The notes under the pieces were generated by a model. The model had not been told where the DNA came from. It saw nothing but the letters and a program-made list of their open reading frames with translations, and did not search any database. From an uncultured Rhizobiaceae group bacterium (GTDB taxonomy: Bacteria > Pseudomonadota > Alphaproteobacteria > Rhizobiales > Rhizobiaceae): DNA of 64,000 nucleotides. Location of the stretch: the NCBI GenBank assembly GCA_937930845.1, contig CALHBJ010000004.1:62001-126000 (forward strand), written 5' to 3'. The translations under genes were made by a program, and so were the position numbers. Below are positions 16,745-39,333 of this stretch, one piece after another (the first letter of the stretch is position 1; each line of letters opens with the position of its first letter).

Positions 16745-16884
16745 AAACGGCGATATTCATATTTACATGTCCAGCCTGGTGCCGGGCCTGAATTCAAATT
16801 TTCAGCCAACAACATTGTTGGCCGATGAACCCTTACAAGATCAACCATTGCAGCGGCTTGCCGCAAAAAAATTAGGAGCCGGAT

Positions 16885-18619: not shown

Positions 18620-19810
18620 TCAGGGATAGAGTGCCGTGACATCGTAGCCGTATATCCAATCCTGCGAAGCATGAATGGCATGGGGTATGATTTTACCCGC
18701 AGCCCACATGGGGCCATAGGTCGCCAGCCGGGACAGGGCACCTGATTTATGGAACGTGTTCATGCGTTTTCGGGCTGCTGCCTGAATTTTGGTAACCCGC
18801 GATAGGCGGGCATTTTCATATTCAATCATAGCGTGTTGCACTGAACTGCCGGTATCGAGGTGGTGGGCCAGCACCCAGGCATCCTCAATTGCCATGGCAG
18901 CACCCTGCGCCACGAATGGCAACATGGGATGGCAGGCATCGCCGAGCAAAGTGACCGGGCCATCGCTCCAATGGGATAAAGGCGCACGATCAAACAGCGC
19001 CCATTTGTAGAATTGCGCGCCGTTTTTCAACACGTTCGTGATGGTTGGGTGCCAGCCGTTAAAATCGGTAAGGGCTTCTTCCTTGCTGCCCTGATTGGTC
19101 CAGTGTTCCGTGTCAGGTTGTGCCTGTTCAACCACTCCTACCAAATTGATCAACCCGCCATCTCCAAGCCTGTAAGTTACCACATGCTTGCCCGGACCCA
19201 CCCAGACGCAGGCAGTGGGGGGCGGTAAATTATCACCAAGAAGACTGGCATTAACGGTCAGCCGCCAGGCGACATTTCCCGTGAATCGCGGAGCGCTGGG
19301 CCCCAGCATCTGTTCGCGCAGGATTGAGTGAATGCCGTCGGCACCGATAATGGCGTCAGCCTCGATTGGGTCATCACCTTCAAGGACCAGGCTTGGCCGG
19401 TCGCCGGTGAGGGAATAGGCGGCCACCTTGGTGCCTAGCTTTGTTGAACCGGGCGCATATTCTTCGAAGGCAGATTTCAATATGTCGATCAATTCAGACC
19501 GATGAATGTTGAGGTAGGGCGCGCGCCAACGATTGTCGGAACCTTGTTCCAGCTGTGCCTTAAATATAGTGGTGCCGAAATGCCCATCGCGCATTTCCAA
19601 GGCCTGGGGCGCAAAGCCTTTTGCCTTGAGGGCGTCTTCCAGCCCCAGTTTTCGCAACACCCGCATGGCGTTGGGGCTGAGTTGAATTCCGGCGCCGACT
19701 TCTGAAATCTGGCTGGCCTGTTCGCACACGATGATTGAATGGCCGCGCTGCGCCAAACACAACGCAGCGGTGAGTCCGCCAATTCCGCCACCTGCGATTG
19801 CTACCTTCAT
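18620..19810 (-). CDS. FAD-dependent aromatic-ring hydroxylase-like monooxygenase
   Basis: MKVAIAGGGIGGLTAALCLAQRGHSIIVCEQ; PVTLLGDACHPMLPFVAQGAAMAIEDAWVLA. Confidence 0.88.
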   Translation of the reverse strand: MKVAIAGGGIGGLTAALCLAQRGHSIIVCEQASQISEVGAGIQLSPNAMRVLRKLGLEDALKAKGFAPQALEMRDGHFGTTIFKAQLEQGSDNRWRAPYLNIHRSELIDILKSAFEEYAPGSTKLGTKVAAYSLTGDRPSLVLEGDDPIEADAIIGADGIHSILREQMLGPSAPRFTGNVAWRLTVNASLLGDNLPPPTACVWVGPGKHVVTYRLGDGGLINLVGVVEQAQPDTEHWTNQGSKEEALTDFNGWHPTITNVLKNGAQFYKWALFDRAPLSHWSDGPVTLLGDACHPMLPFVAQGAAMAIEDAWVLAHHLDTGSSVQHAMIEYENARLSRVTKIQAAARKRMNTFHKSGALSRLATYGPMWAAGKIIPHAIHASQDWIYGYDVTALYP

Positions 19811-19902
19811 GTGGGTTGTTGTTCCAGTTTGTGTCGTCGTCACGTTATTTCATTGGACAGGTGTTTAGTGGAAATTTGTTGAACATGCGCGACAATCATA
19901 AA

Positions 19903-19958: not shown

Positions 19959-21014
19959 TCAGGTGTAGGCGCTGGAACCTTCCGATCTGCCCTGTGTGCG
20001 GGCCATCGCCTTGACGCAATCTTCCATTGAAAGACCACCGACCTTTTTGCCGTCACGCACGACAATGGCTTCCTTGATCTTGGATGAAACCAGCACTTGC
20101 ATGGCTTCTTCCAACACCGTTGAGGCCTCCAGTTCCGGGCCCTTGGCAGGTGGCTTGGCATGCATGACCGAGCCAACTTCAAGAACGCGCCCCCGGTTGA
20201 TGTCCTTGATGAAGTCCGACACGTAATCGTCAGCCGGATCAAGAACGATTTGTTGCGGACTGCCTTCCTGAACCATCGATCCATCGCGCAAAATGGCAAT
20301 ATTGTCGCCAATGCGCAGGGCTTCATCGAGATCATGGGTGATGAAGATGATGGTTTTGTGCAGCTCTTCCTGAAGATCAAGCATGACATTTTGCATGTCT
20401 GTTCGGATGAGCGGATCGAGGGCAGAAAATGCCTCGTCCATCAGCAGGATTTCTGCATCGGTGGCGAGCGCGCGGGCAAGGCCCACACGCTGTTGCATGC
20501 CGCCTGAGAGCTGGGCGGGATAGTGATTTTCAAATCCCGACAGGCCAACCCGATCAATCCATTTCTGGCTTCGGCTCATGGCCTCTGAGGTTGGAATGTT
20601 CTGGATTGTCAGCCCATAGGCCGCGTTCTCCGCCACTGTGCGGTGCGGCAAAAGTGCGAACTTCTGAAACACCATGGACGCCTTTTTGCGGCGGAATTCA
20701 CGCAGGTCATTATCGTTCATGGACAGCACATCTTCGCCATCCACAATCATCTCGCCAGCAGTTGGCTCGATGAGGCGGTTGATATGGCGGATCAGTGTGG
20801 ACTTGCCCGATCCGGACAATCCCATAATGACCTGCACCTTGCGGGCAGGGATATCCAGATTGATGTCTTTCAAACCCAGCACATGGCCGTGTTTTTCCAA
20901 CAATTCCGGTTTGCCCATGCCGCCCTGTACTTTTTCGACCATGGCCTTGGGGTTTGACCCAAAGATTTTGTAGAGGTTCTTGATCTGAACCTTCATTTGT
21001 TCATCAGACACCAT
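19959..21014 (-). CDS. proV: ProV-type quaternary amine ABC transporter ATP-binding protein
   Basis: KIFGSNPKAMVEKVQGGM, VIMGLSGSGKSTLIRHINRLIEPTAG, LSGGMQQRVGLARALATDAEILLMDEAFSALDPLIR; C-terminal CBS-like segment. Confidence 0.93.
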   Translation of the reverse strand: MVSDEQMKVQIKNLYKIFGSNPKAMVEKVQGGMGKPELLEKHGHVLGLKDINLDIPARKVQVIMGLSGSGKSTLIRHINRLIEPTAGEMIVDGEDVLSMNDNDLREFRRKKASMVFQKFALLPHRTVAENAAYGLTIQNIPTSEAMSRSQKWIDRVGLSGFENHYPAQLSGGMQQRVGLARALATDAEILLMDEAFSALDPLIRTDMQNVMLDLQEELHKTIIFITHDLDEALRIGDNIAILRDGSMVQEGSPQQIVLDPADDYVSDFIKDINRGRVLEVGSVMHAKPPAKGPELEASTVLEEAMQVLVSSKIKEAIVVRDGKKVGGLSMEDCVKAMARTQGRSEGSSAYT

Positions 21015-21894
21015 GGCCTCCTTCGCGGTGCTTTTGCAGCCGCTTGCCGTATGCTTGGGATACGCGGTCAAAAATGATCGCCAGGGCAACGATGGCCATG
21101 CCATTGAAAACGCCCAATGCGAGATACTGGTTGTTCACCGCACGCAGCACCGGAGTGCCAAGGCCAGAACCGCCGATCAGGGCGGCAATAACCACCATGG
21201 CCAAAGCCATCATGATTGTCTGGTTGACGCCTGCAAAAATGTTGGGAAGTGCCAATGGAATTTGAACCCCAAAGAGCCTTTGCCGGTAACTGGCGCCAAA
21301 TGAATCGGCAGCCTCCAACACGTCCGCTTGTACCAGGCGAATGCCCAGATTGGTCAAACGCACAATGGGCGGGATGGCGTAGATCATCACAGCAATCAAT
21401 GCCGGTGCCTTGCCAATGCCGAGCAGCATGACCACCGGAATGAGATACACAAAACTTGGAATTGTCTGCATGATGTCGAGAATAGGGGTGATGACCGCTT
21501 GAATCCGGTCAGACCTGGCCATGGCGACACCAACGGGGATGCCAATGGCAATACACAACACGGTGGCAACAGAGACCATCGCAGTGGTGACCATTGTGTC
21601 TTCCCACATGTCGAAATAACCGATCAGCAGGAACGCGATTGCGGTTCCCACAACCATTTTCCAACTGCGCGAGCCGAGCCACGCCAGGCCACAAAAAATC
21701 AAGATCATGATTGGCCATGGTGTTGCCAGCAATATTTTCTGGAACCACAGCAGAAAGTCTTTCAGCGGATCGAATAAGGCTTCGATAAGCTCGCCGTTTT
21801 CGCGTGTGAAGTCGCGGAATGTGCTGTCGATCGCTTTTTTAAGGTCTCGAAGGCTTTCGCGCTCCATCACCGGAAACTCGGTGAAAAATGACAT
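21004..21894 (-). CDS. proW: ProW-type ABC transporter permease
   Basis: ATVLCIAIGIPVGVAMARSDRIQAVITPILDIMQTIPSFVYLIPVVMLLGIGKAPALIAVMIYAIPPIVRLTNLGIR. Confidence 0.93.
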   Translation of the reverse strand: MSFFTEFPVMERESLRDLKKAIDSTFRDFTRENGELIEALFDPLKDFLLWFQKILLATPWPIMILIFCGLAWLGSRSWKMVVGTAIAFLLIGYFDMWEDTMVTTAMVSVATVLCIAIGIPVGVAMARSDRIQAVITPILDIMQTIPSFVYLIPVVMLLGIGKAPALIAVMIYAIPPIVRLTNLGIRLVQADVLEAADSFGASYRQRLFGVQIPLALPNIFAGVNQTIMMALAMVVIAALIGGSGLGTPVLRAVNNQYLALGVFNGMAIVALAIIFDRVSQAYGKRLQKHREGGHGV

Positions 21895-21933
21895 TGGTAT
21901 CTCCCCAAACACTCAGTTTTAGCTGATTTATAA

Positions 21934-21969
21934 AAAAGCCCGCCGACATTCAAATGCCGACGGGCTTCT
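21934..21969 (-). terminator. Intercistronic hairpin between proX- and proW-like genes (attenuator/terminator)
   Basis: Minus strand: AAGCCCGTCGGCATTTGAATGTCGGCGGGCTTTTTTATA. Confidence 0.75.
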
Positions 21970-21993
21970 GTTTATTCTACCCTAAAGGCGATC

Positions 21994-23025
21994 CTACAGA
22001 GCGGCTTTCACTTTTGAAGCCACATCTTCGGAGACCCATTTTGTCCAAACATCTTCGTGCTTTTTCAGGAACTCAATGGTGGCATCCTCACCGGATGCCT
22101 GCTCTTCGCCCATATATACCAGCATGGCATTCATGACGGCGCCTGGGAAAACACGCTTGGAAAGATACTCAGAAGCTTTCGAGCCTTTTTCCGCGAAGGA
22201 CTTGGTGATGACCGTGTTCACTTCGGATTCGGTGTACGCGCTTGGCTTTGGATCGGCACATTCCTGCTCCGGCTTCACAATGCAGCCGTCCCAGTTTTCT
22301 GTACCAGCCCAAGGGGTTTCCCACTTGAGAAGCTTAAGGTTGTATTTGCCGATCAGAGCGGTAGGCGACCAGTAGTAGCCGAACCAGAACTTATCACGCT
22401 CTGCTGCTTTTGCGATTGAACCGTCAAGACCGGCTGCGGAGCCTGGGTCTACAAGGCGCCAGCCTTTTTCTTCCATTTTGAAAGCGCGGAACAAAGATGC
22501 ATTTGACAACTGGCAACCCCAACCGGCAGGGCAGCCAACAAATGCGCCCTTGGAGGAATCTTCAGCGTCTGGGAACAGGTCTGGACGTGCCAGAACTTTT
22601 TCAACGGAATCCAGCTCAGGATGTGCCTTTGCAAATGCAGGTGTGACCCACCAGCCTTCGCCCAGGTCGGTAATTGGTCCTTTAACAAGAACCTCCATGC
22701 GGCCTTCGCCGATTGCCTTGTCGAGCGGGTCGCGAACTGCGTTCACCCAAAGCTCACCGGCAACCTCAGGGCTGCCTTTTTCGTTCATCGCAGCAAAGAT
22801 CTGTGTTGTTCCGCCCTGGATCAGCTCGACATTGCAGTCATAGCCTTTTTCCAGAATGAACTTGTCAACATTGGCCATCAACTCGCCGGAGGCCCAGTTG
22901 AATTCTGCCATTTTCACATCGCCGCATTTTGCATGGCCATCGGCCAGCGCGGTTGTTGTGAATGTTACGTTTGAAGCGGCCAGGATCGCAGACGTTGCTG
23001 CAAGGCCCATCAAAAACTTCTTCAT
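21994..23025 (-). CDS. proX: ProX-type substrate-binding protein of quaternary amine/betaine transporter
   Basis: Signal peptide; AEFNWASGELMANVDKFILEKGYDCNVELIQGGTTQIFAAMNEKGSPEVAGELW; KFWFGYYWSPTALIGKYNLKLL. Confidence 0.88.
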   Translation of the reverse strand: MKKFLMGLAATSAILAASNVTFTTTALADGHAKCGDVKMAEFNWASGELMANVDKFILEKGYDCNVELIQGGTTQIFAAMNEKGSPEVAGELWVNAVRDPLDKAIGEGRMEVLVKGPITDLGEGWWVTPAFAKAHPELDSVEKVLARPDLFPDAEDSSKGAFVGCPAGWGCQLSNASLFRAFKMEEKGWRLVDPGSAAGLDGSIAKAAERDKFWFGYYWSPTALIGKYNLKLLKWETPWAGTENWDGCIVKPEQECADPKPSAYTESEVNTVITKSFAEKGSKASEYLSKRVFPGAVMNAMLVYMGEEQASGEDATIEFLKKHEDVWTKWVSEDVASKVKAAL

Positions 23026-23265: not shown

Positions 23266-24105
23266 TTATTCGTTGAACAGCCGCTGGGCCAAATCAATCA
23301 GCCAGGGCCAGGATGCCTCACGGGTCTCATTTATAAGCAGATAAGCCGGGCGTGTGAACGTGGGAGCTTCTTCAACACGGAATAGATTTCCCCTGGGCAC
23401 GTGCCACTCTGCCAGCGCTTCAGGCAAATATGCCGATCCGCCATTGTCAAACAGATAGTCCAGGCCCCAACGGGCGCTCGACAGACTGTGCTTGGCAATG
23501 CCTGCATCAAAATAGGTGGCGGCATGGCTGCGCCCGAAATTGCTGCCAGCGTCTATATAAATATAGTCCGGGTCGAACCGGGAAGGGCTGTCTGGCTTTG
23601 TGGAATATAAGGAAAGCTTTTCCAGCCCCAGAGTATGAACAGCAATGTTGTCGAGGGTGTTGGCGTGATAGCTCAGTGCCGCGTCGATCAATCCGCTGGC
23701 CAGCCATTCATCGGTTTGAGCCGCATCACCAGACTTGACCGACAAGGCGGTTTTTGGATGTTCAAATTTAACCGCTGAGGTCAGTCGCCGACCAAGGATT
23801 GGCCACAAATCGTCGTCGCAGCCCATATTGCAGACCGCATCCACGCCATCCGGCAAAGAAGTCTCCAGCATGGCTTGTCGCCACATGTCACTCATGGCTG
23901 CGGCATAGCGGTGGAATTTCACGCCGGAAGCGGTCAGCACCACGCCTGACTTCTGGCGGTGCAAAAGGGTTTGGCCAATATCGTCCTCAAGGCCCTTGAG
24001 CCGTGCGGTGATGGTGGACTGGGTAACATTGAGCACTTTTGACGCCCGTATCAGTGAGCCGGTCTCCACAATTGTCAAAAAGGTTTTGATTTGGGTGAGG
24101 CTCAT
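23266..24105 (-). CDS. LysR family transcriptional regulator
   Basis: SLTQIKTFLTIVETGSLIRASKVLNVTQSTITARLKGLEDDIGQTLLHR HTH. Confidence 0.92.
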   Translation of the reverse strand: MSLTQIKTFLTIVETGSLIRASKVLNVTQSTITARLKGLEDDIGQTLLHRQKSGVVLTASGVKFHRYAAAMSDMWRQAMLETSLPDGVDAVCNMGCDDDLWPILGRRLTSAVKFEHPKTALSVKSGDAAQTDEWLASGLIDAALSYHANTLDNIAVHTLGLEKLSLYSTKPDSPSRFDPDYIYIDAGSNFGRSHAATYFDAGIAKHSLSSARWGLDYLFDNGGSAYLPEALAEWHVPRGNLFRVEEAPTFTRPAYLLINETREASWPWLIDLAQRLFNE

Positions 24106-24245: not shown

Positions 24246-25727
24246 GTGCAGGAAATCCAAAATTATCAGATGCTGATCGATGGTCAGTGGTGCGATGCTT
24301 CTGATGGCGCGGTGTTTGACAGTTTTAACCCGGCCACGGGGGAAACCTGGTCGTGTGTGCCGCAGGCCAGTGCGGAAGATGTGGACCGGGCCGTGCGCGC
24401 CGCAGACAGGGCAGGGCGCGTTGGCCCCTGGGCACAGATGACGCCGACCCAAAGGGGGCAGTGTTTGCGCCGTCTTGGGGATTTGCTGGCTGACAACTCT
24501 GAAAGGCTGGGGGAGATCGAATGCCGTGACACGGGCAAGATGTTCAAGGAAACCCGCTGGCAGGCTAAATATATCGCTGAGTTCTTCCATTTTTATGCCG
24601 GATGCGCCGACAAGGTGAGCGGGGAGACTCTGCCAATTGATAAGCCAGATCTGTTTGTTTTCACCGACCGTGAGCCGCTGGGTGTCATCGCGGCCATTGT
24701 TCCCTGGAATTCCCAATTGTTCCTCAGTGCCGTGAAAATTGGACCGGCACTGGCGGCTGGAAACACGATGGTGATGAAGGCATCTGAACATGCTTCGGCC
24801 GCCATGTTGGAATTTGGCAAGCTCATTGCAAAGGCTGGCATTCCCGATGGGGTGGTGAATATTGTCACCGGCTATGGGGAGCCCTGTGGCAAGGCGTTGA
24901 CTACCCATCCGCTGGTGGCGCGCATTTCCTTTACGGGCGGGCCGCAATCTGCCCAGCACATCATACGAAATTCCGCTGAAAATTTTGCTGAGGTTTCATT
25001 GGAACTCGGTGGCAAATCGCCCTTTATCGTATTTGAGGATGCGAATCTGGAAAGCGCCGTAAATGCCTCTATTGCCGGCATATTTGGTGCCAGCGGACAA
25101 AGCTGTGTCGCCGGATCACGGCTTTATTTGCACCATGATATTGCCGATGAATTTTTGCAGCGCATGGTGTCGATTGCCAAGAATATTCGTATTGGCGATC
25201 CCATGGCAGAAGAGACGGAAATGGGGCCCTTGTGCACGCGCGGGCAGTTGGACCTGGTCAAAAGTGAAGTCGCCCATGCGGTTGAACAGGGGGCCACAAT
25301 ATTGTGCGGTGGCAAAGAGCCGGACGGTCTGGACGGGCTGTATTTCGAGCCAACGATTGTGGATTGCCCCCGGCAGGATCTGAAAATCGTTGATACCGAA
25401 CTGTTTGGACCGGTGCTCAGCGTGGTGCGCTTCGGGGATGAGGCGGAAGCGATTGAACTGGCCAATGACACCAAACATGGACTGGCTGCCGGTATCTTTA
25501 CCCAAAACAGTGCGCGGTCCTTGCGGGTGGCGAAAGCGGTGCGCGCGGGAATCGTTTGGGTCAACACTTACCGTGTGATTTCGCCCATTGCCGAATTTGG
25601 CGGCACTAAAACATCCGGCTACGGGCGCGAGAGCGGGTTCCAGGCGATCTATGATTATACACGCCCCAAAACGGTGTGGATGAACATGTCTGACGCGCCG
25701 ATGGCCAATCCGTTTCAAATGCGATGA
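24246..25727 (+). CDS. Aldehyde dehydrogenase family protein
   Basis: IVPWNSQLFLSAVKIGPALAAGNTMVMKASEHA; VSLELGGKSPFIVFEDA; FGASGQSCVAGSRL catalytic Cys. Confidence 0.93.
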   Translation: MQEIQNYQMLIDGQWCDASDGAVFDSFNPATGETWSCVPQASAEDVDRAVRAADRAGRVGPWAQMTPTQRGQCLRRLGDLLADNSERLGEIECRDTGKMFKETRWQAKYIAEFFHFYAGCADKVSGETLPIDKPDLFVFTDREPLGVIAAIVPWNSQLFLSAVKIGPALAAGNTMVMKASEHASAAMLEFGKLIAKAGIPDGVVNIVTGYGEPCGKALTTHPLVARISFTGGPQSAQHIIRNSAENFAEVSLELGGKSPFIVFEDANLESAVNASIAGIFGASGQSCVAGSRLYLHHDIADEFLQRMVSIAKNIRIGDPMAEETEMGPLCTRGQLDLVKSEVAHAVEQGATILCGGKEPDGLDGLYFEPTIVDCPRQDLKIVDTELFGPVLSVVRFGDEAEAIELANDTKHGLAAGIFTQNSARSLRVAKAVRAGIVWVNTYRVISPIAEFGGTKTSGYGRESGFQAIYDYTRPKTVWMNMSDAPMANPFQMR

Positions 25728-25749
25728 CGGGAAACAACGGGGGCAAGCA

Positions 25750-26784
25750 ATGAAATTTCATCTGGCAATTAATCTGGAGCGTACCAGCCCTGACACGCCC
25801 ATGCAGCAAGTGCGCGACCACACGCTTGATATGGTGCAGATGGCAGATCGGGCTGGCTTTGAGGTGGCGTGGGCCGCCGAGCACCATGCCATTGAAATGA
25901 CCATTGCGCCCAATCCGTTTCAGATTTTGACCTGGTGGGGCTGTAACACAGACAATATTCGCCTTGGGTGTGGCGTGGCAAATGCCTCTTACTGGCATCC
26001 CATTAATCTGGCCGGGGAGGCCGCGTTGCTGGATGTCATCTCCGGGGGGCGGCTGGAATTTGGATTGGGCTCAGGCGCTTACCAACGCGAATTCGACCGG
26101 ATGAAGCCTGGGCTGCTGCAATCGGATTCCTGGCAATATATGCAGGAATCCCTACCGCTGGTGCGCAAGCTTTGGGCGGGGGATGTGGCACACGAAGGCC
26201 AATTCTGGCAGTTCCCCAAAGCCACGTCTTGCCCAAAACCTATGCAGGAAGACGTGCCGTTTTGGGTGGCAGCACGCTCGCCCATCACGTTCGACTATGC
26301 CGTGGCAAACGGATGTAACGTCATGTGCTGGCCGCTCACCAAACCGTTCAGCGAAGCGCAAAATTACAAGAAATTATTGGACGAGGCGATTGCCAAGGCA
26401 GGCGGGCAGCACAGGCCGCGCATGGCCATGATGCGCCACACAAGTCTGTATGAAAACGACAATGACCGACAGGCGGCGCTAAAGGCGGTGCGGCACAATC
26501 TTAGTCAGTTCGGCAATTTGATGATGAAGGCCGGGGATGTTGTGGAAGGTTTTCCCGATGCCGTTCCGCTTGAAAAGCTGGAAGGCAATGTGTTTGTCGA
26601 TCCGGCCATGCTGGAAGAAAATCTGGTGTTTGGATCGCCCGACCGGGTGGTTGAAAAACTCAAAGCCTATGAGGCGCTGGGTGTGGATGCGTTCATCTAT
26701 TACGCTTCCATGGGGGTGGGGCAGGAACAGCAAAAGCGTTCCCTTGATTTGTTCATTCGCGAAGTGATGCCGGCATTCGGCTGA
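25750..26784 (+). CDS. LLM class flavin-dependent oxidoreductase
   Basis: MKFHLAINLERTSPDTPMQQVRDHTLDMVQMADRAGFEVAWAAEHHAIEM; LGCGVANASYWHPINLAGEAALLDVISGGRLEFGLGSGAYQREFD. Confidence 0.92.
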   Translation: MKFHLAINLERTSPDTPMQQVRDHTLDMVQMADRAGFEVAWAAEHHAIEMTIAPNPFQILTWWGCNTDNIRLGCGVANASYWHPINLAGEAALLDVISGGRLEFGLGSGAYQREFDRMKPGLLQSDSWQYMQESLPLVRKLWAGDVAHEGQFWQFPKATSCPKPMQEDVPFWVAARSPITFDYAVANGCNVMCWPLTKPFSEAQNYKKLLDEAIAKAGGQHRPRMAMMRHTSLYENDNDRQAALKAVRHNLSQFGNLMMKAGDVVEGFPDAVPLEKLEGNVFVDPAMLEENLVFGSPDRVVEKLKAYEALGVDAFIYYASMGVGQEQQKRSLDLFIREVMPAFG

Positions 26785-26794
26785 AGGAGACAGC

Positions 26795-27391
26795 ATGGCT
26801 GTAGAAATTAGACGTACACTTTTACACGTTCAGACCACCCATGTGGAAGGCGGTAAGTCTGTGGATGTGCCCACAAAACTGGTGGCGTCACTGGCGATTA
26901 TCAAGAACCCGTGGAGTGGCCGTGGCTTTGTGGAAAACCTGCGCCCGGAAATTCGTGAGACCGGCCCGGTGGTCGGTAAGCTGCTGACAGATATGATTCT
27001 CGATGTGACCGGCGACGCGCTGGAAGGTTATGGCAAAGCTTCAGTTGTTGGCATGGGTGGCGAAATCGAGCACGCCCAGGCGATGACCCATACATTGTGG
27101 TTCGGCAATCAGTACCGGGACGCGGTGAATGCGAAAAGCTATCTGGCGTTCACCAACACACGTGGTGCGGCCGGATGTGCGCTCATGATTCCATTGATGG
27201 ACAAGGATGATGGGGGCAGGCGATCCCACTACCAGACCATCCATTTGTCCGTGCCCGATGCACCGGCGGACGATGAAATCATCATTGCGTTGGGCGCTTC
27301 GGTTGGCGGGCATCCCCATCACCGCATTGGCAATCGATATGAGGATCTGGCCGAGATGGGGCGCGATGTGGACAATCCGGCAGGGGTCTGA
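26795..27391 (+). CDS. Amino acid synthesis (AA_synth, PF06684-like) family protein
   Basis: ASLAIIKNPWSGRGFVENLRPEIRE...GKASVVGMGGEIEHAQAMTHTLWFGNQYRDAV. Confidence 0.8.
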   Translation: MAVEIRRTLLHVQTTHVEGGKSVDVPTKLVASLAIIKNPWSGRGFVENLRPEIRETGPVVGKLLTDMILDVTGDALEGYGKASVVGMGGEIEHAQAMTHTLWFGNQYRDAVNAKSYLAFTNTRGAAGCALMIPLMDKDDGGRRSHYQTIHLSVPDAPADDEIIIALGASVGGHPHHRIGNRYEDLAEMGRDVDNPAGV

Positions 27392-27393
27392 CC

Positions 27394-28200
27394 ATGGTCA
27401 GTTTTGCGGCCAATGGAACGGCATATGAATGGTTTGGGCCGCAAGACGCGCCAGTTGTGGTGCTGATCCATGGCCTTGGCCTAACCCGCCACACATTTGA
27501 GGCGATGATCCCTGCGTTGGCCAAGAACCATCGTGTCTTAAGCTATGATCTTTTGGGACATGGGGAGAGCGCATCGCTGGGTGGACAGGCAAGCCTGACG
27601 CGCTTTAGTGAGCAGTTGCACGATCTTGTCCATGAGTTTGATATAGACCACGCGGCACTGATTGGGTTCTCGCTCGGTGGGATGATCAACCGCCGGTTCG
27701 CCATGGACTATCCCAATCATGTATCGGCGCTGGTGGTGCTGAATTCGCCCCATGAACGGGGAGCCGAGGCGCAGGCTGCGGTGGAGGCACGGGCGGCGGA
27801 TACGCAGGCAGGGGGACCGTCTGCCAATCTCGATGTCACCATTGCGCGGTGGTTTACGCCTGAATTCATCAAATCCAGCCCAAAGGTGATTGAACGCATC
27901 CGTTCGTGGGTCAGCGCCAATGAGCCGTCAGACTATGCCGCGTGTCGCATGGTGTTGGCATCGGGAGTGACCGAACTCATTCACCCGCATCCACCAATTG
28001 CCCATCCCACACTCGTGCTCACCTGCGAAAATGATACGGGCAGCACACCCTCCATGAGCCGTGGGATTGCTTCGGAAATCGCGGGCGCTGAGGTGCATGT
28101 TGTCGCGCATTTGCAGCATTTGGGGCTGGTGGAGCAGCCTGATCTTTTCGTGGTGCCTGTGATTGAATTTCTCAGCGCCCATATCCCGGCGGCCACCTGA
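27394..28200 (+). CDS. Alpha/beta hydrolase
   Basis: VVVLIHGLGLTRHTFEAMIPALAKNHRVLSYDLLGHGES; LIGFSLGGMINRRFAM (GFSLGG nucleophile elbow). Confidence 0.9.
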   Translation: MVSFAANGTAYEWFGPQDAPVVVLIHGLGLTRHTFEAMIPALAKNHRVLSYDLLGHGESASLGGQASLTRFSEQLHDLVHEFDIDHAALIGFSLGGMINRRFAMDYPNHVSALVVLNSPHERGAEAQAAVEARAADTQAGGPSANLDVTIARWFTPEFIKSSPKVIERIRSWVSANEPSDYAACRMVLASGVTELIHPHPPIAHPTLVLTCENDTGSTPSMSRGIASEIAGAEVHVVAHLQHLGLVEQPDLFVVPVIEFLSAHIPAAT

Positions 28201-28228
28201 TGGACGTTGTCATTCCAAAGGAAAATTC

Positions 28229-29917
28229 ATGAAAACCCTGTCTGGCGGTCAGGCCGTTGTTGAGGCTCTTAAGGTCGAGGAAACGAAATTCGTTTTTGGG
28301 TTGATTGGCTCTGCGACTATGGAAATATTTGATGGGCTATATGATGCGCCCGAAATCAAATTTATCGGCGTGCATGATGAGCGTACCGGCACCCATATGG
28401 CGGACGGATATGCCCGCGCAAGCGGCCAGCCCGGTGTCGTGCTGGCAGGCCAGAACGGGCCCGGCACGACCAATCTGGTGACAGGTCTGGCGCAAGCCAA
28501 GGCTGCGTTTTCGCCGGTGGTTTCCCTGTCCGGGGCCTTGTCCAGTGGCCATGTTTACCGGGATGCTTTTCAGGAAGTTGACCAACAGGCGCTGTTTCAA
28601 CCAATCACCAAGAAAACCTGGACCGCCACCAGTTGTGACCGGGTGCCGGAAATGGTGCGCGAAGCGTTCCGGGTTGCCACCAGTCCACGACAGGGGCCGG
28701 TGCAATTGAACCTGCCGCGTGATGTTTTATCCGCACAGGCCGACTTTGCCGATTTGCAGCACCCAAATGCCTATCGCCCCTGTTCGAAACCGGCGGCAGC
28801 ATCCAGTGATATTGATCGTGCAGCCGGATTGCTGAAAGGGGCGGCCCGGCCGGTGATCATTGCCGGTGGGGGGATCAAGAACACCGGGGGTGCCGCCCAG
28901 GCCCTTGCGCTGGCAGAAGAACTGAACTGCCCGATTGCCACGTCACCTGGCCATGGGGATGCGTTGCCATTTGGCCATCCACTCAACGCCGGACAAATGG
29001 GGCCGCGGGGCAATCCCGTAGCTTCCAGGCTGGTGAAGGAGGCGGATGTTATATTGGCGCTTGGGACGCGCCTTGGTTTCAATTCCACATTCTATTCCTA
29101 TGACAATATCAATCGCGATGCGGCTATCATTCAGGTGGAATTAGAGCCCACCGCGCTGGGCCGGTATTTCCCCATTGAGATTGGCATCTGGGCGGATGCC
29201 CCCACTGTGGCCGAGCAATTGACGCAAGCCCTGTGTCGCCTCGAACTGGACCAGAAGGTGAAACAATGGACCGCCATTTTTCAACAGGACCGGGCCGCCT
29301 ATCTGGCGAAACGGGACGGGGATGCAGATGTTCATTCCAATCCGATCCAGCCTTCCGGCCTGTTCAAAACATTGCGTGATGTCCTGCCACAGGATGCAGC
29401 CATCACGATGGATGCTGGCACTTTGTGCCTGCAGGCTACGGACGCACTGAATTACGCGCAGCCTAAGAGCTTGTTTACCCCACTGGATTTCGGCCTCGTG
29501 GGATTTTCCTTTGCCTGCGGACTTGGTGTGAAACTGGCAATGCCGGAACGGCCCGTGATCAGCCTGATGGGCGATGGTGGGTTTGGCATGACGGTGTCTG
29601 AATTGTCGACCGCTGTGGATCACGGCATCAATACGGTAACACTGGTGATGAACAATAAGTGCTGGGGAGCTGAGAAGGCCTATCAGCGCGATTTCTTTGG
29701 CGAACGCTATATCGGGGCCGATGTTTCCAGTCCGCCATTTGACAAGCTGGCGGAACTTTATGGCGCTGCGGGGTTTCGCGCGGAAACCAATGCGCAAGTC
29801 CGCGAAGCGGTTGAGGCAGCACTGGTTTGTGGAAAGCCCGCAGTCGTGGACATCGCGGTTGACCCGTCCGCGCTGTATTCATTTCGCCGGGACAGTTTCA
29901 AACATCGCGGTGGATGA
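28229..29917 (+). CDS. Thiamine pyrophosphate-dependent enzyme (acetolactate synthase-like superfamily)
   Basis: FGLIGSATMEIFDGL..IGVHDERTGTHMADGYARASGQPGVVLAGQNGPGTTNLVTG; ThDP motif MGDGGFGMTVSELSTAVDHGINTVTLVMNN. Confidence 0.9.
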   Translation: MKTLSGGQAVVEALKVEETKFVFGLIGSATMEIFDGLYDAPEIKFIGVHDERTGTHMADGYARASGQPGVVLAGQNGPGTTNLVTGLAQAKAAFSPVVSLSGALSSGHVYRDAFQEVDQQALFQPITKKTWTATSCDRVPEMVREAFRVATSPRQGPVQLNLPRDVLSAQADFADLQHPNAYRPCSKPAAASSDIDRAAGLLKGAARPVIIAGGGIKNTGGAAQALALAEELNCPIATSPGHGDALPFGHPLNAGQMGPRGNPVASRLVKEADVILALGTRLGFNSTFYSYDNINRDAAIIQVELEPTALGRYFPIEIGIWADAPTVAEQLTQALCRLELDQKVKQWTAIFQQDRAAYLAKRDGDADVHSNPIQPSGLFKTLRDVLPQDAAITMDAGTLCLQATDALNYAQPKSLFTPLDFGLVGFSFACGLGVKLAMPERPVISLMGDGGFGMTVSELSTAVDHGINTVTLVMNNKCWGAEKAYQRDFFGERYIGADVSSPPFDKLAELYGAAGFRAETNAQVREAVEAALVCGKPAVVDIAVDPSALYSFRRDSFKHRGG

Positions 29918-29936
29918 CGGCTCGGCGCAAACGCGC

Positions 29937-32108
29937 CTATAAGTCGAGGATGAGCTTTTTGGTTTTTGAACGTGAGCAGCAAACGGTAATTTGGGCATTG
30001 GATGCTTTTTCAATGTCTGTTTGCACCAGATCACGGTGGTCGGGCATGCCTTCGATGACATTGGTCAGGCAGGTTCCGCACACACCAGATTGGCATGATA
30101 CCTGAACATGAATGCCATTTTCGGCCAGTTTTTCAGCAATGGTTTCACCGGGATGGACGTCAATTGTCTTACCGGATTTTTGCGTAATCACGGAAAACGG
30201 CGCGCCGTCGGTGTTCACTTCCGCACCAAAGCGTTCCAGGTGCACACAGCTTGTGTTCCATCCGTTGTTTTGTGCTGCTGTTGTGATGAAATCCATGAAC
30301 CCATTGGGGCCACATGCATATAGATGCCGCTTTGGTGCGGCTGTCGCCAAGACGCCGTTGATGTCTAATTGCTGGTTCTTGTCGCCGCTGCTGACATGAA
30401 ACTGTACTTTTTCGCCGAAGCTTAAAAGCTCGTCCTGGAAGGCCAGCCGATCTGCGGTGCGAACACAATAATGCAATTCCCAGGCCACGCCTTGTGCCTG
30501 CAGCGCATAAGCTATGCTCAGCATGGGCGTGATGCCAATGCCGCCGGCGAACAGAATTGTATGATCCGCGTCTGGTTGCATTGGAAAGTTGTTGCGCGGA
30601 TGCCCAATGCGGATGTTGCTGCCCTCACGAAATTGGGTGTGGATGGCGGTTGAACCACCCCGCGATTTGGGATCCAGCAAAACGCCCAGCCTGTATCTGG
30701 TGCGGTCAGCAGGATCGCCCGTGAGGGAATATTGGCGGATGAGGCCGGACTTCACGTAAACATCCACATGGGCACCAGCATCATAGGCGGGCAGGGCGCT
30801 ACCATCGGCACCGACCAGTTCTAACCCGATTGTATTGGTGGCCACATTCGTGCGCCGCTGTACGGTCACATCCAGCCAGGGGCTTTTTTCAACGGGCAGC
30901 GCGTCCGCTGTCACGGGCATATCTGTGAGGGGCAGTTCTGCCAAATGCACTTTGACCGGCATGGTGGCGTAGGCGCGTATTGTATTATTCATCGCGATTG
31001 TGGGCTCAGCTAAAAGCTCAAACCGCTCGACACGACGGCGCAGGGCTTCGAGCAGCAGAATGATTTCACGGCGGGCCAAATGCATGCCCATGCACATATG
31101 GACACCCTGCCCAAAGCCCAGATGATCGTGAACGTCGCGCGTCACATTATAGCGATCAGGATCCTTGTATTTTCGCGGGTCACGATTGGCGGATGCATAC
31201 ATCACGATCACCCGTTTTCCCGCGGGGATTGTATGACCTGCAATTATGCTGTCTTCGATCGCATAGCGGGTGAACGCCCGAATAGGTGTGCCCAGGCGCA
31301 CGGCTTCCTCAACCGCATTGGGTATCAGGCAGGGGTCATTGCGGATCAAATCCCACTGGTCGGGATGGTCTGCAAAAAACTTGATAATCTGCCCGGTGGT
31401 GGAAATTGTGGTGTCGAGGGACGGGTTGATATAATCGCGCATGAGTTGGGCGCAGGTTTCATAGGACAAGCCGCGCTCTGCACCGACTTCGAATATGCGC
31501 TTGGCCCATCCGCCTGGTTTGAGTTTTTCCGGGCGACCATATTCCAATAGAAAGTTGCGCAGGTCTTTGAGGTCTTCAAAAGCCTGTGTCGTGCGCTCGT
31601 TTTCCGTGCCAAACAGATTGAACGTGGCAGAAGCCCATTTCAGCATTTGGGCGGAATCAACCGGAAGGCCGACCAGTTCCGCAACGATGGTGACCGGAAG
31701 GTATTGGGCAAAATCTGATATGGCGTCGAACTCACCCCGCTCGCACAGGGCGTCGATCAAGCCATTTGCGGAAGCGGCCAACAGGGGCTCTATTTCCTTT
31801 AACGCGCCAGGCAGCAATGGTTCGGAGGTGACAGCGCGGGTACGATCATGTTCGGGCGGGTCCGAATTGAGGGTCGAGCCGACCAAAATGTCGTTCACTT
31901 TTGGAATTGGCGACACACCATGGGAACTCACAAACCGGAGTGGCTGGCGCAGAACTTCGCTGACTTCATTATAGCGGGGCAGGGCGTAGAGGTCGTTTCG
32001 TGGCAAGTAAACGACCGGCCCGGTCTCGCGCATTCGTTCATAAACCGTGTGGGGATCGAGGATGACTTCATCGGCGTAGAAGTCGATGTCCAGTGAGGGA
32101 ATGGTCAT
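29937..32108 (-). CDS. Self-sufficient cytochrome P450 fused to phthalate-dioxygenase-reductase-like FMN/2Fe-2S module (CYP116B-like)
   Basis: EEAVRLG (ExxR), heme motif FGQGVHMCMG; then flavin/NAD reductase (RQYSLTGDPAD, ILFAGGIGITPMLSIA) and C-terminal 2Fe-2S CQSGVCGTC...C. Confidence 0.95.
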   Translation of the reverse strand: MTIPSLDIDFYADEVILDPHTVYERMRETGPVVYLPRNDLYALPRYNEVSEVLRQPLRFVSSHGVSPIPKVNDILVGSTLNSDPPEHDRTRAVTSEPLLPGALKEIEPLLAASANGLIDALCERGEFDAISDFAQYLPVTIVAELVGLPVDSAQMLKWASATFNLFGTENERTTQAFEDLKDLRNFLLEYGRPEKLKPGGWAKRIFEVGAERGLSYETCAQLMRDYINPSLDTTISTTGQIIKFFADHPDQWDLIRNDPCLIPNAVEEAVRLGTPIRAFTRYAIEDSIIAGHTIPAGKRVIVMYASANRDPRKYKDPDRYNVTRDVHDHLGFGQGVHMCMGMHLARREIILLLEALRRRVERFELLAEPTIAMNNTIRAYATMPVKVHLAELPLTDMPVTADALPVEKSPWLDVTVQRRTNVATNTIGLELVGADGSALPAYDAGAHVDVYVKSGLIRQYSLTGDPADRTRYRLGVLLDPKSRGGSTAIHTQFREGSNIRIGHPRNNFPMQPDADHTILFAGGIGITPMLSIAYALQAQGVAWELHYCVRTADRLAFQDELLSFGEKVQFHVSSGDKNQQLDINGVLATAAPKRHLYACGPNGFMDFITTAAQNNGWNTSCVHLERFGAEVNTDGAPFSVITQKSGKTIDVHPGETIAEKLAENGIHVQVSCQSGVCGTCLTNVIEGMPDHRDLVQTDIEKASNAQITVCCSRSKTKKLILDL

Positions 32109-32917
32109 GCGGTTGCCTGTGATGCGGGTAAACAAATTGCATCCAATCCCAAGGCATCGGCCATGTTGAACGCACCCATGCCGCCATCAATGGCGATGTC
32201 GGTTCCTTTGATCCAATGGGAGGCGGGGGACAAAAGGAATGCGGCAACTTCCGCGACTTCCCTGGGATTGCCCGGGCGGCCTGCGCGTTCCACATTTCTT
32301 GCCATTGCGGCACCGAACACGCGCTGGAAATCTTCAAGAATGGCGGTGGCAATGCCGCCGGGACTTAAGGAATTGATGCGAAGCCCGCGTTGCACCATCG
32401 CTTCGGCTTCTGCCACTGTCCACAGGATGACGGCTTCCTTGGTCAGATTGTAACAGCGGGTGGCGTCGATCTGTTCTTGCGCAACAAAACTGGCCAGTTG
32501 ATCGGGCCTGGACAGGGCTGCCAGCCGCTTGACCTGTTCAAGCCCATCGCGCCAGCCGTGACCGGCCCGGCTGGCCATATTGACGATTGAGCCGCCCTTG
32601 CGCAGGTGGGGCAGCATCGCGTTTGTAAAGGCACGGGTGCCCAGGAAATTGACCTGAAGAATGGCTTCTTCCAGCCCCTCTCGTGGTGGCAGTCCCGCAT
32701 TGTTGCAAAGTCCGTCGAGCGGCTCATCAATTGCTGCTGCAGCGGTTAATATGCTGGTCGGGTCATTGAGGTCCAGGGCGATGAACTGATCAATATTCTT
32801 GGTGGTTTCGCGAATGTCGAAGCCAATCACCCGATGCCCCTGCTCGTGCAAGGCTTCTGCCAGTTCAGCACCAATGCCGCTGGCAACACCGGTTATCGCA
32901 TAAGTCATCTGGCCCAT
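32105..32917 (-). CDS. SDR family oxidoreductase (coniferyl-alcohol dehydrogenase-like)
   Basis: YAITGVASGIGAELAEALHEQGHRVIGFD; CNNAGLPP; CYNLTKEAVILW; overlaps the P450 start. Confidence 0.85.
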   Translation of the reverse strand: MGQMTYAITGVASGIGAELAEALHEQGHRVIGFDIRETTKNIDQFIALDLNDPTSILTAAAAIDEPLDGLCNNAGLPPREGLEEAILQVNFLGTRAFTNAMLPHLRKGGSIVNMASRAGHGWRDGLEQVKRLAALSRPDQLASFVAQEQIDATRCYNLTKEAVILWTVAEAEAMVQRGLRINSLSPGGIATAILEDFQRVFGAAMARNVERAGRPGNPREVAEVAAFLLSPASHWIKGTDIAIDGGMGAFNMADALGLDAICLPASQATA

Positions 32918-33184: not shown

Positions 33185-34606
33185 TTAAGCTGCTTTGCAG
33201 CGGAAGTGATAGATCACACCGCCCAGTACGGCACCGATAATCCATGCATAACCGGCAAGGTTGCCAAGCAATGGCACCCAGACCGTGGCAATGGAGAACA
33301 CCGCAGCAATTGCAAAGGCAATCAGTGCGTTGTCGTGCCAACCATTGCCGTAGTGATACTCGCCCCCGTCCATGTTGTAGAGGTCCGCGACGTTCAGGTT
33401 CTGCTTGCGCACAATGTAGTAATCGACGACCAGAATACCAAACAGCGGGGCCATCATGGCACCAAGCGTGTTTACAAACGAGCCGATGCCGATCTGGCTA
33501 ATGACAGATACCCACAACCCGCCAATTACCAAAGCGAAAGCTGAGGTAATCAAGCCTGCTTTTCTGAAGCTGATCGTGGTGGGCGACAGGTTAGCGATGC
33601 CGTTCACAGCGGGAATGAAATTGGCAACGAGGTTGATGCCCATTGTGGCGGCGAGGAACGTCAGGGCAGCGATGATACTTAGAATAACGCTGTCTGCTTT
33701 CTCGACTATCTCGGTTGGATTGATGATGGATTCGCCGTAGACCACGGCTGCGCCCGCTGTGGTTAGAAGAGCCAGGGCGGAGAACAAAATCATGTTAAAC
33801 GGCAAGCCCCAGAAGTTGCCTTTGGTCATGGCAGACTTGTCTTTTGCATAGCGGGAAAAGTCGCTGAAGTTGATCATCACCGCGGCGAAATATGCGACCA
33901 TAGTTCCGAATATGGCAACGAAACCGGTAAACTCGGTGCCCCATGTACCTTCCGGATTGGCAAAAATTGTTTGTGCCGAGGACAGCAATTGACCGTCAGA
34001 TTTGACCCAAAGCACAACGAGCAGGGCGATCATCACAGCGTAAACGAAGGGGCCTGCGAAATTCAGGAATTTTTCAACCCATCCCATGCCTTGCCAGAAG
34101 ACAAAAATGTGGATTGCCCAAACGATCAGGAAAGAAATCCAGCCAACGGTTGTCAGCCCCATCATCTCTGCGCCACCGGATGCGCCTGTTACTGCGTTGA
34201 TGAGCAGCGCCAGCGCGGTTGAAGCGAAGTAAACCTGCACACCGTACCAAAACACAGCAACGATGGCCCTTAGAATGGCTGGCAATTTGGAACCCGCTGT
34301 GCCCATGCTGGCGCGCGCAAATACCGGGTAGGGGATGCCATATTTTTCACCAGCAGCGCCCGACATGTTGACCATGTACATCACGAACAGGCCTGACAGC
34401 ACCAGAGCGGCGAATGCCGTCCACCCGCTGACTCCGAATGAAATGAATAGGGAGGCGACCAATGTGTAGCCAAACAATGACTGAACGTCATTGGCCCAGA
34501 CATTGAAAATACCAAACCAGCCCCAGGACTTTTCTTCTCCTGTCACCGGCTTTAGCGCGTCATCGACACCCGTTATCTGGGTGCTGTTTGTTGTTGAGTT
34601 ATCCAT
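33185..34606 (-). CDS. NCS1 / cytosine permease-like nucleobase:cation symporter
   Basis: KSWGWFGIFNVWANDVQSLFGYTLVASLFISFG; GIPYPVFARASMGTAGSKLPAILRAIVAVFWYGVQ; start MDNSTTNS at 34606. Confidence 0.88.
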   Translation of the reverse strand: MDNSTTNSTQITGVDDALKPVTGEEKSWGWFGIFNVWANDVQSLFGYTLVASLFISFGVSGWTAFAALVLSGLFVMYMVNMSGAAGEKYGIPYPVFARASMGTAGSKLPAILRAIVAVFWYGVQVYFASTALALLINAVTGASGGAEMMGLTTVGWISFLIVWAIHIFVFWQGMGWVEKFLNFAGPFVYAVMIALLVVLWVKSDGQLLSSAQTIFANPEGTWGTEFTGFVAIFGTMVAYFAAVMINFSDFSRYAKDKSAMTKGNFWGLPFNMILFSALALLTTAGAAVVYGESIINPTEIVEKADSVILSIIAALTFLAATMGINLVANFIPAVNGIANLSPTTISFRKAGLITSAFALVIGGLWVSVISQIGIGSFVNTLGAMMAPLFGILVVDYYIVRKQNLNVADLYNMDGGEYHYGNGWHDNALIAFAIAAVFSIATVWVPLLGNLAGYAWIIGAVLGGVIYHFRCKAA

Positions 34607-34661
34607 AATTCCTTTTCCTCTTAGTTTGCCTCCCAAATGGGCGGCGACTGGGTGAAAGTCT

Positions 34662-35594
34662 TTAATCAAACAAACTTGAAACCGACTGCTCCAGGGCGGT
34701 TCGCCTGATGGCTTCTCCCAGCAGTTCGGCAATGGACAGGATGCGAATATTTTTTGCGCCTTCGACGGCGGAGGTCACAGCGATCGAATCTGTGATGACA
34801 AGTTCCGTCAGCTTGGACTTGCCAATGCGGTTGACGGCTTCTCCCGAGAGTACGCCATGGGTGATGTAGGCGGCGACGCTTGTTGCCCCCTGATCGAGCA
34901 GAGCTTCGGCGGCGTTGCACAAGGTGCCGCCGGAATCGATGATATCATCCACGAGGATGCAATCATGGCCCGTTACGTCTCCGATCACATTCATGACCTT
35001 GGATTCACCTGGCTTGTCCCGCCGCTTGTCGACGATGGCCAGGGGCGTGTTAACGCGGCTGGCCAATGCGCGGGCGCGCACAACCCCACCCACGTCAGGC
35101 GATACCACCATCAGGCTTTGGGTATTGTATCTGGCTTTGACATCCTTGCTCATCTCGGGAATGGCAAAGAGATTGTCGGTTGGAATGTCGAAAAAGCCCT
35201 GAATTTGAGTGGCATGGAGATCAAGGGTCAGCACCCGGTCCGCACCAGCTTCAACGATCAGATTTGCTACCAGTTTGGCAGAAATGGGGGTGCGCGGGCC
35301 TGGCTTTCTATCTTGTCTTGCATAGCCAAAATAGGGGAGAACGGCCGTTATGCGGCGCGCTGAAGACCGGCGCGCCGCATCAATCATGATGAGCATTTCC
35401 ATGAGATTGTCATTGGCCGGATAGGATGTGGACTGGAGAATGAAAACATCTTCCCCGCGCACATTTTCCTTCAGTTCAACGAAAATCTCCTGGTCAGCAA
35501 ACCGCCGCACATCGCAACTGCCCAGCTGCGTGTCCAGATAGTTTGCGATGTCGCGGCTCAGACCACTATTTGAATTGCCGGCAAAAAGCTTCAT
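34662..35594 (-). CDS. prs: Ribose-phosphate pyrophosphokinase
   Basis: [93 protein letters not shown]. Confidence 0.96.
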
Positions 35595-35632
35595 GTCATC
35601 CGCGCTATTTTCATGTTGTTGTCAGGCCGCCC

Positions 35633-36253
35633 CTAGACCGGAAAGGCCATCTGCGGCTTGTAGGTTTCAAAACTCTTGAGCGTTTGGGAATTGGCCTGCT
35701 TTTGCCATTCACTTCCCGGCACCACAGCCGTGACGCAATGATATTTCTCGCGATAGACCTTGGTGTTTTCATTATCTTCCATGACGATCGCTACCATTCC
35801 GGCGACTTGTCCGCTTTGTTGTTCCACGAGTTGAATTGCGCCGTGCATGGAGCCGCCCGTTTCCACCCATTGATCCACAAGAAGTACGCGGGTGTTGGGG
35901 GCAAAGGCGGGCTTACGCATTTCCATGTCCTGGGTGCGGCCCGAATAGTTTGTAAACGATGCGCTGTCCGTCTCGACACATAATTTGCCAGCTTTTCGGA
36001 TTGGCAAAAAGCCTTTGCCTATGCGCGTGGCAATGCCTGAGCCAAGCACAAAACCCATGGCATCAAGGCCAGCAACCACATCAATTGTGTTGGGGTCAAG
36101 ATCTGCACACAAATCATCAAGCAGATCGTGGAACGCGCGGCCATTGATGTAAATCGATGTGGGGTCGAGCCAGGCAAATTTATCGCCTTTGGTGTTGGGA
36201 GCCATGAGCGGGAGGTACCAACGATCATCTCTTGGGCCTTTGTTGTCGGTCAT
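35633..36253 (-). CDS. Phosphoribosyltransferase, adenine-PRTase-like
   Basis: DVVAGLDAMGFVLGSGIATRIGKGFLPIRKAGKLC; PRPP loop RVLLVDQWVETGGSMHGAIQL. Confidence 0.8.
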   Translation of the reverse strand: MTDNKGPRDDRWYLPLMAPNTKGDKFAWLDPTSIYINGRAFHDLLDDLCADLDPNTIDVVAGLDAMGFVLGSGIATRIGKGFLPIRKAGKLCVETDSASFTNYSGRTQDMEMRKPAFAPNTRVLLVDQWVETGGSMHGAIQLVEQQSGQVAGMVAIVMEDNENTKVYREKYHCVTAVVPGSEWQKQANSQTLKSFETYKPQMAFPV

Positions 36254-37014
36254 GTGTTGTCTCCTGTCTTGGTGAATTCCATCAACTTGGCCAAGCGGGC
36301 CGGATCGATGTTGTAAAAATCTTCTTTGATATTGATGCCCGTGGATACCAGCACACAATCGACATGGGGCAGGTAGTCGCTGACATTCTCAGGCGTTATT
36401 CCCGAAGCCAGCGCCAGAGGTGTTGTGCCACAGGCTTTGCGGAAGGTTGTGATCTTGTCCAAATCTGCCGAATGGCCAGTGGCGATGCCCGACGTTGTCA
36501 CAACATCCATCAGTCCACAGGCCAGGCGAGCGCTGGTGGCATGATCGGCGGGGTCCACATCGCGTTGTTTCTTGAATGCGGTGCCGCCAAAATATAGGCC
36601 ATCCCAGCCACATTGGCGCTTGATGGCTTGAATTTCGGTGGCTTCGTCCTGGGCATCTTCGCCACGCCGTTCATCGACACGGGCATCGTCGGCCCAATAA
36701 GCGTCCACACGAATGCCTTCCTTTTGCAGATCGGCCAGGATGGGAAAGGCCGTTTTGCCGGTTACCGCAAGGAAATTGACGCCGATCCACAGATCGGGAA
36801 ATTGTTGCCGCACATGGCGGATGATTGGCAAGAATTGCGGATAGTCAAAGTCATGGTTGATGAGGAAAATACCAGGGCAACCAGCATCCATTGCCAGCCC
36901 GGCATTCTTGGTGGCCTGATCATTATCAAGCACATGGATAACCGGCAGCACGACCAATCCCTGGCTTGAAAACACCTTTTGGAATTTCTCTCGATCCACG
37001 CAACGTCCTTCCAT
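36250..37014 (-). CDS. BtpA/SgcQ-like TIM-barrel protein
   Basis: LWIGVNFLAVTGKTAFPILADLQKEGIRVDAYWADDARVDE; TTPLALASGITPENVSDYLPHVDCVLVSTGINIKEDFYNIDPARLAKLMEF. Confidence 0.65.
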   Translation of the reverse strand: MEGRCVDREKFQKVFSSQGLVVLPVIHVLDNDQATKNAGLAMDAGCPGIFLINHDFDYPQFLPIIRHVRQQFPDLWIGVNFLAVTGKTAFPILADLQKEGIRVDAYWADDARVDERRGEDAQDEATEIQAIKRQCGWDGLYFGGTAFKKQRDVDPADHATSARLACGLMDVVTTSGIATGHSADLDKITTFRKACGTTPLALASGITPENVSDYLPHVDCVLVSTGINIKEDFYNIDPARLAKLMEFTKTGDNT

Positions 37015-38039: not shown

Positions 38040-38167
38040 TAATAATATCGCAAACTGACGTTAGACTTTTGTCTGTTGGGGATCATCGGTCCGATAATAA
38101 ATTCTAAATTGTGGTGCAGACCGATGCCAATGTGGAAGTATTGAAACGGGAGCTAAGGAAAAAGACC

Positions 38168-39301: not shown

Positions 39302-39333
39302 GCGTCAAAATGGCATAAGGGGAGGCGGCGTGG

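Follow-up and report, generated by a model that had tools for sequence, protein, structure and literature searches.

The closest described counterpart of the genes presented here is the trigonelline degradation module TgnA-F of Acinetobacter baylyi, which is said to have been described by Perchat et al. in 2018. An AA_synth protein, an alpha/beta hydrolase, a flavin reductase, an LLM flavoprotein and an aldehyde dehydrogenase (ALDH) constitute what we take to be the gene set of this pathway. Trigonelline breakdown, in which the ring is opened and methylamine and formate are among the products, serves together with the roles of the Tgn genes as the model for the steps proposed below. TgnF is described as homologous to a DUF1185 protein (PMC7913881). 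For homarine, N-methylglutamate dehydrogenase (Mgd) takes part in catabolism (PMC13390433); for the homarine catabolism pathway, this source refers to Ferrer-Gonzalez et al. 2026 (Nat Microbiol 11:1531). R. pomeroyi DSS-3 is reported to draw homarine down fast (PMC12817926).

Here, we compare these systems with a locus in a window of 64,000 nucleotides (the whole stretch of DNA that was analysed) from an uncultured Rhizobiaceae bacterium. It probably carries a LysR-controlled catabolic operon that would open an N-methylpyridinium-type ring by means of an LLM ring-opening branch related to Tgn. The arguments are drawn from sequence, namely the conservation of the operon, its Tgn-type homology, its linkage to mgs/gmaS and betaine-transporter genes, and the absence of the neighboring P450 and SDR genes in relatives.

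Gene organization of the locus

A LysR-type regulator (23266-24105, minus strand; PF00126, 62 bits) is transcribed divergently from the ALDH gene, with 140 bp separating the two. The ALDH (24246-25727; PF00171, Pfam 538 bits), with a putative TgnC-like role, opens a run of five plus-strand genes. It is followed by an LLM flavin monooxygenase with a putative TgnB-like role (25750-26784; PF00296, 183 bits), a TgnF-like AA_synth/DUF1185 protein (26795-27391; PF06684, 199 bits), an alpha/beta hydrolase with a putative TgnD-like role (27394-28200; PF00561, 89 bits) and a ThDP-dependent enzyme with three TPP domains (TPP_enzyme N, M and C; 28229-29917). The gaps between consecutive genes, from ALDH to ThDP, measure 22, 10, 2 and 28 bp. 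The most likely start of the ThDP gene is ATG 28229 (562 aa), in preference to TTG 28163.

Convergent to this run, and only 19 bp beyond it, lies a fusion of a CYP199A-like P450 with a reductase half of the phthalate-dioxygenase-reductase type (29937-32108, minus strand). Its start is most likely ATG 32108, which overlaps the stop of an SDR gene (32105-32917, minus strand; PF13561) as ATGA. A hairpin search in the convergent gap scored no better than shuffled sequences (z 0.08), and an Rfam scan of the window returned two tRNAs and nothing else. All seven genes named in the sequence-only reading are thus present with the domains and strands given there, apart from the amended starts of the ThDP and P450 genes, and the ProXWV and LysR genes that it placed beside the cluster were both confirmed.

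The genes of a ProX-ProW-ProV betaine-type ABC transporter (19959-23025, minus strand; OpuAC, BPD_transp_1, ABC_tran and the ProV model) are followed after ProV, on the same strand, by an aromatic hydroxylase-like FAD_binding_3 monooxygenase gene (18620-19843; PF01494, 94 bits). In one relative (L093), a homologue with 44% identity to the latter is found some 2.5 kb downstream from the hydrolase gene; the gene is otherwise not conserved, and its tie to the pathway is uncertain. The plus strand upstream of the transporter encodes Complex1_51K and molybdopterin subunits of formate dehydrogenase, together with FTHFS (10863-18561).

Beyond the SDR gene, the minus strand carries a group comprising an NCS1 permease (33185-34732) and PRPP synthetase-like, phosphoribosyltransferase-like and BtpA-like genes (33185-37014 in all), with a terminator of 13 bp stem beside it at 33164-33134. 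The make-up of this group resembles that of a salvage unit for nucleobases or nucleosides. Further on, positions 38111-44255 encode an ABC transporter (SBP, two permeases and ATPase) along with a polysaccharide-deacetylase/PuuE-like gene and a DUF1989 gene.

Conservation of the operon and of its neighbors

An alignment search of the GTDB genome collection with the LLM yielded 501 relatives, and the best 80 loci of these 501 were retained. Most belong to marine Alpha- and Gammaproteobacteria. They stem mostly from marine Rhodobacterales and also from SAR116, Planktomarina, Hyphomicrobiales and Granulosicoccaceae; several come from metagenome-assembled genomes (MAGs) labelled Acidimicrobiales, where mis-binning of single contigs is possible. 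Neighborhoods were counted in the 58 of these 80 loci that extend at least 4 kb upstream and at least 4.5 kb downstream of the LLM gene. The hydrolase was present in 53, the ALDH in 49, AA_synth in 47, the divergent LysR in 46 and the ThDP gene in 41, and the full five-gene set together with the divergent LysR was kept in 31. A cultured isolate, Roseovarius litorisediminis CECT 8287 (L124), has the full set. A search among viral contigs found no relatives.

The P450-reductase fusion, on the other hand, was missing from all 58 loci and from 14 further genomes belonging to the genus, and the SDR gene turned up in a single one of the 58. Because joint conservation is confined to LysR and the five plus-strand genes, the seven-gene cluster falls into two units. 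LysR with ALDH, LLM, AA_synth, hydrolase and ThDP forms, on the comparison of these loci, a compact and widely conserved operon, and the same comparison marks SDR and P450 as a separate convergent accessory unit, an unrelated neighbor of the operon. The sequence-only reading had treated all seven genes as one catabolic cluster and had proposed neighborhood conservation as a check; the five plus-strand genes bore this out, and the P450 and SDR did not belong.

That all seven genes form one pathway is accordingly very improbable. Their adjacency, the short convergent gap and the overlap of the SDR and P450 genes would speak for it, as would the CYP199A-like domain, which suggests an aromatic carboxylate substrate. 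Against these stand the counts above and the observation that the closest full-length relative of the P450 fusion within the family (44% identical) does not adjoin any LLM operon. The P450 and SDR were therefore rejected as pathway members. The SDR itself scores above the cut-off for the coniferyl-alcohol dehydrogenase subfamily (262 bits, cut-off 242), and a plasmid search with it gave no match.

The pairing of LLM and alpha/beta hydrolase had also been likened to RutA and RutD. A pyrimidine or amide ring opening of the Rut type would, like our proposal, begin with a flavin-dependent enzyme that opens the ring and continue with hydrolysis, and an NCS1 permease gene lies nearby. However, the hydrolase reaches only 78 bits with the RutD model (cut-off 238), no RutA model appears among the LLM matches listed, RutB and RutE partners are missing from the cluster, and the NCS1 permease is found in none of the 58 loci. 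What survives of the comparison is the suggestion of an oxidative ring opening, with Rut as a more distant analogue; the Rut pathway was rejected on these model scores, and we regard it as scarcely credible.

Relationship to the trigonelline module

Clusters of AA_synth, hydrolase, flavin reductase, LLM and ALDH genes were found in Acinetobacter (L035), on pSymA of S. meliloti (L036), in Leisingera (L037) and in others. As Tgn reference we used the A. baumannii locus, which stands in for A. baylyi and is called Tgn from its gene content only. The ALDH of the window is 55-57% identical to the Tgn-type proteins of Acinetobacter and S. meliloti and 75% identical to that of an Aminobacter cluster; the corresponding values for the LLM are 37-38% and 63%. 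The LLM aligns with the Acinetobacter protein at 38% identity over 345 aa (E 4e-88) and lies in a separate clade of the tree. The AA_synth protein is closest to the Tgn type (66% in S. meliloti, 59% in Acinetobacter, 49% in the clade B described below), and the hydrolase is 25-28% identical to the Tgn type and 45% to clade B. Its Ser, Asp and His are invariant across the aligned branches, with S93-D214-H242 as the probable catalytic triad. The AlphaFold model of the LLM (pLDDT 76) is closest to bacterial luciferase and RslO1, with 3,6-diketocamphane monooxygenase (type II Baeyer-Villiger) ranking lower, as expected of a two-component flavin monooxygenase.

Since one operon unites homologues of the Tgn LLM, ALDH, AA_synth and hydrolase, the locus is, as judged from homology, a variant of a known module and not a wholly new combination. 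This does not support the earlier view that the combination matched no recognized pathway: ALDH, LLM, AA_synth and hydrolase, with a flavin reductase, are the Tgn set. Similarities would extend to a betaine-type substrate, as suggested by the transporter, and to methylamine and formate as expected products. Unlike the Tgn module, the operon has a divergent LysR instead of GntR and another gene order, lacks both an adjacent flavin reductase (TgnA) and an SSA dehydrogenase (TgnE), the gene of which is present in the Acinetobacter and S. meliloti clusters, and carries an extra ThDP gene that Tgn is without.

The LLM tree resolves into Tgn-proper, Tgn2, D, B and C branches, the LLM of the window belonging to C. 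Branch Tgn2 comprises SAR11-like genomes (a provisional label from genome size and a G+C content of about 30%), several relatives in the window's own genus, and Rhodobacteraceae. Its typical set consists of a divergent LysR with AA_synth, hydrolase, flavin reductase, LLM and ALDH, and the clusters of SAR11-like genomes are without the flavin reductase. In one of the latter (L174, 5337-7172), an ORF of 612 aa without a Pfam match directly precedes AA_synth. Branch D is found in Agrobacterium and Azospirillum, with ProXWV.

Branch B occurs in Aminobacter (L030), Parasedimentitalea (L031) and R. pomeroyi (L221). Its clusters share the ALDH-LLM pair, with AA_synth, hydrolase and flavin reductase nearby, and differ in having RidA, CoA transferase, ECH, HADH, BKACE and acyl-CoA enzymes in place of the ThDP gene, as well as a GlxA regulator. 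The Parasedimentitalea cluster includes a CoA transferase fused to a flavin reductase domain (7028-9151).

This sister clade raises the alternative that the substrate is an aliphatic quaternary amine or acyl-betaine of the carnitine or butyrobetaine type, degraded with no ring opening. The clade B LLMs are 61-67% identical to ours and lie amid carnitine-type CoA genes (ECH, HADH, BKACE, acyl-CoA dehydrogenase and CoA ligase) under the GlxA regulator, and a gene of the R. pomeroyi DSS-3 region is entered as carnitine catabolism (PMC10041152). The clade C operon, however, has none of these CoA genes, and its AA_synth protein stands nearer to the Tgn type than to clade B. Furthermore, carnitine routes are not known to need an LLM, a hydrolase or a flavin reductase. 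We therefore consider a carnitine-type substrate unlikely, and retain the opening of a ring as the preferred reading.

Flavin reductase and ThDP enzyme

About half of the loci have a flavin reductase gene (~200 aa) between LysR and ALDH, where the gap is then approximately 600-700 bp, versus approximately 100 bp in loci without it. The LysR-ALDH gap of the window contains no gene; four flavin reductase genes lie elsewhere in its genome.

The ThDP enzyme belongs, by its model matches, to the sulfoacetaldehyde acetyltransferase/acetolactate synthase superfamily. Its best NCBIfam subfamily is sulfoacetaldehyde acetyltransferase (Xsc), and scores with the Xsc models stay below cut-off (TIGR03457/PRK07525, 397 vs 676 and 412 vs 620 bits, the latter pair being that of the NCBIfam match). 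Its AlphaFold model (pLDDT 53) was unusable. Among the LLM branches, the ThDP gene is a marker of clade C, with one exception whose LLM lies near clade B (L057, genome G213).

A ThDP enzyme 45% identical to that of the window is encoded on the R. pomeroyi DSS-3 megaplasmid (L162, 1360-10680), with an MttB-like methyltransferase, a class III aminotransferase and two FAD oxidoreductases as partners. This cluster could be a methylated-amine route, such as one for taurobetaine.

Clues to the substrate

Ten of the 58 loci have a ProXWV-type transporter next to the operon; in one of them (L092), ProXWV lies downstream on the same strand. The transporter of the window is a probable importer. Its ProX groups with that of L092 and with that of a SAR11-like genome (L179, 178-9741), where ProXWV stands next to a Tgn2 cluster and is 40, 59 and 59% identical to the ProX, ProW and ProV of the window, respectively. 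The same SAR11-like locus also carries an Ldh_2-family gene, AA_synth, hydrolase, LLM and ALDH, and is a candidate for a homarine cluster ending in N-methylglutamate.

The enzymes encoded by mgsABC and gmaS convert methylamine to N-methylglutamate. In four of the 58 loci (L094, L125, L138 and L149), these genes lie with an XRE-cupin regulator downstream of the operon on the same strand, compared with 0.3 expected (binomial P = 0.0003, uncorrected for relatedness). As three of the four are Roseovarius and one is a Rhodobacteraceae, they do not amount to four independent events. In L125 (11903-16936), a TmaR-like XRE-cupin regulator and mgsABC-gmaS directly follow an operon without the ThDP gene. 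The genome of the window has mgsABC/gmaS-type genes elsewhere, beside probable trimethylamine monooxygenase (Tmm) and TMAO demethylase (Tdm) genes; Mgs, Tmm and Tdm were named by eye from sequence, and GmaS also by TIGR03105. FTHFS genes lie near the operon in the window and in two relatives (L057 and L096).

Taken together, the mgs/gmaS, ProXWV and FTHFS genes are in keeping with an N-methylated ring from which methylamine and formate are released. The guess of the sequence-only reading at a quaternary-amine substrate fits with the transporters near the operon and the adjoining mgsABC-gmaS genes.

Homarine is the leading single substrate, held tentatively and with a likelihood somewhat short of even. 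The homarine operon of Ferrer-Gonzalez et al. (2026) reportedly comprises five genes and a regulator and is said to be found in SAR11 and SAR116. A marine distribution is common to that pathway and to our operon, as is a tie to N-methylglutamate metabolism, to judge from the role of Mgd given in PMC13390433. The operon of the window may already have been described as the 2026 homarine pathway. The link of the operon to N-methylglutamate metabolism that mgsABC-gmaS provide here is suggestive and not homarine-specific. The reported make-up of the homarine operon would match Tgn2 no less well than clade C. As candidates for the homarine operon, Tgn2 and clade C rank equal. R. pomeroyi DSS-3 (genome G771, recognized by a 100% identical megaplasmid stretch of 19,653 bp) lacks a clade C LLM, its only related LLM being that of clade B, amid the carnitine-type genes. 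DSS-3 consumes homarine without clade C; clade C is therefore not needed for homarine use, and an outright equation of clade C with homarine by way of this strain failed.

These observations bear on a further alternative, in which the same chemistry acts on another N-alkylated heterocycle (N-methylnicotinamide, N-methylisonicotinate or an imidazolium betaine) and homarine and trigonelline are left to the Tgn2 and Tgn branches. Tgn2 sets in Rhodobacteraceae, and reductase-free ones in SAR11-like genomes, agree with it. So does the Ldh_2-family gene of the one Tgn2 cluster, which could reduce an N-methylimine to N-methylglutamate, and the presence of both B and C LLMs in one genome (G508) argues for different substrates of these two clades. 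Conversely, the grouping of the window's ProX with that of the SAR11-like Tgn2 cluster suggests the same ligand, and no genome examined (Rhodobacteraceae) combined a clade C with a Tgn-type LLM, although their number is too small for significance. We regard another heterocycle as possible, if on the unlikely side.

Discussion

According to the reading that we prefer, ProXWV would take up a substrate of the betaine type, for which an N-methylpyridinium carboxylate is most likely and homarine the leading candidate. A reductase encoded elsewhere would supply reduced FMN to the LLM monooxygenase, which, by analogy with trigonelline, would use FMNH2 and O2 to cleave the ring between C5 and C6, beside the nitrogen. 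The ring-opening product would be an N-formyl-N-methyl enamide aldehyde, which the ALDH would oxidize to the acid; hydrolase and AA_synth would then release formate and methylamine. If the substrate is homarine, 2-oxoglutarate would be left as the carbon product. The ThDP enzyme may process the 2-oxo acid or semialdehyde skeleton, its role being the least certain step. Finally, methylamine would enter N-methylglutamate via mgsABC/gmaS, and formate would pass to FTHFS and formate dehydrogenase. The substrate, the order of reactions and the role of the ThDP enzyme are inferred.

Several points weigh against this scheme: the LLM and the hydrolase share only 38% and 25-28% identity with the Tgn type, the expected product 2-oxoglutarate does not require a ThDP enzyme, and SAR11-like genomes carry the Tgn2 branch instead of clade C. 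A bolder version, in which clade C is an undescribed, marine-widespread, ThDP-dependent LLM branch for an N-alkylated heterocycle without known catabolism, ending in a ThDP carboligase, decarboxylase or phosphorolytic step foreign to the Tgn and homarine routes, is conceivable, with a probability that we place below even.

The comparison defines a family of parallel LLM and AA_synth modules (Tgn, Tgn2, B, C and D) and places the AA_synth/DUF1185 family, which is poorly understood, consistently in a catabolic setting. The operon is common to Roseovarius, Planktomarina, SAR116, Granulosicoccaceae and MAGs labelled marine Acidimicrobiales. If the proposed function is correct, this compact operon would track the turnover of an abundant N-methylated ring osmolyte, and would connect the metabolites of phytoplankton with the flux of methylamine, formate and one-carbon units.
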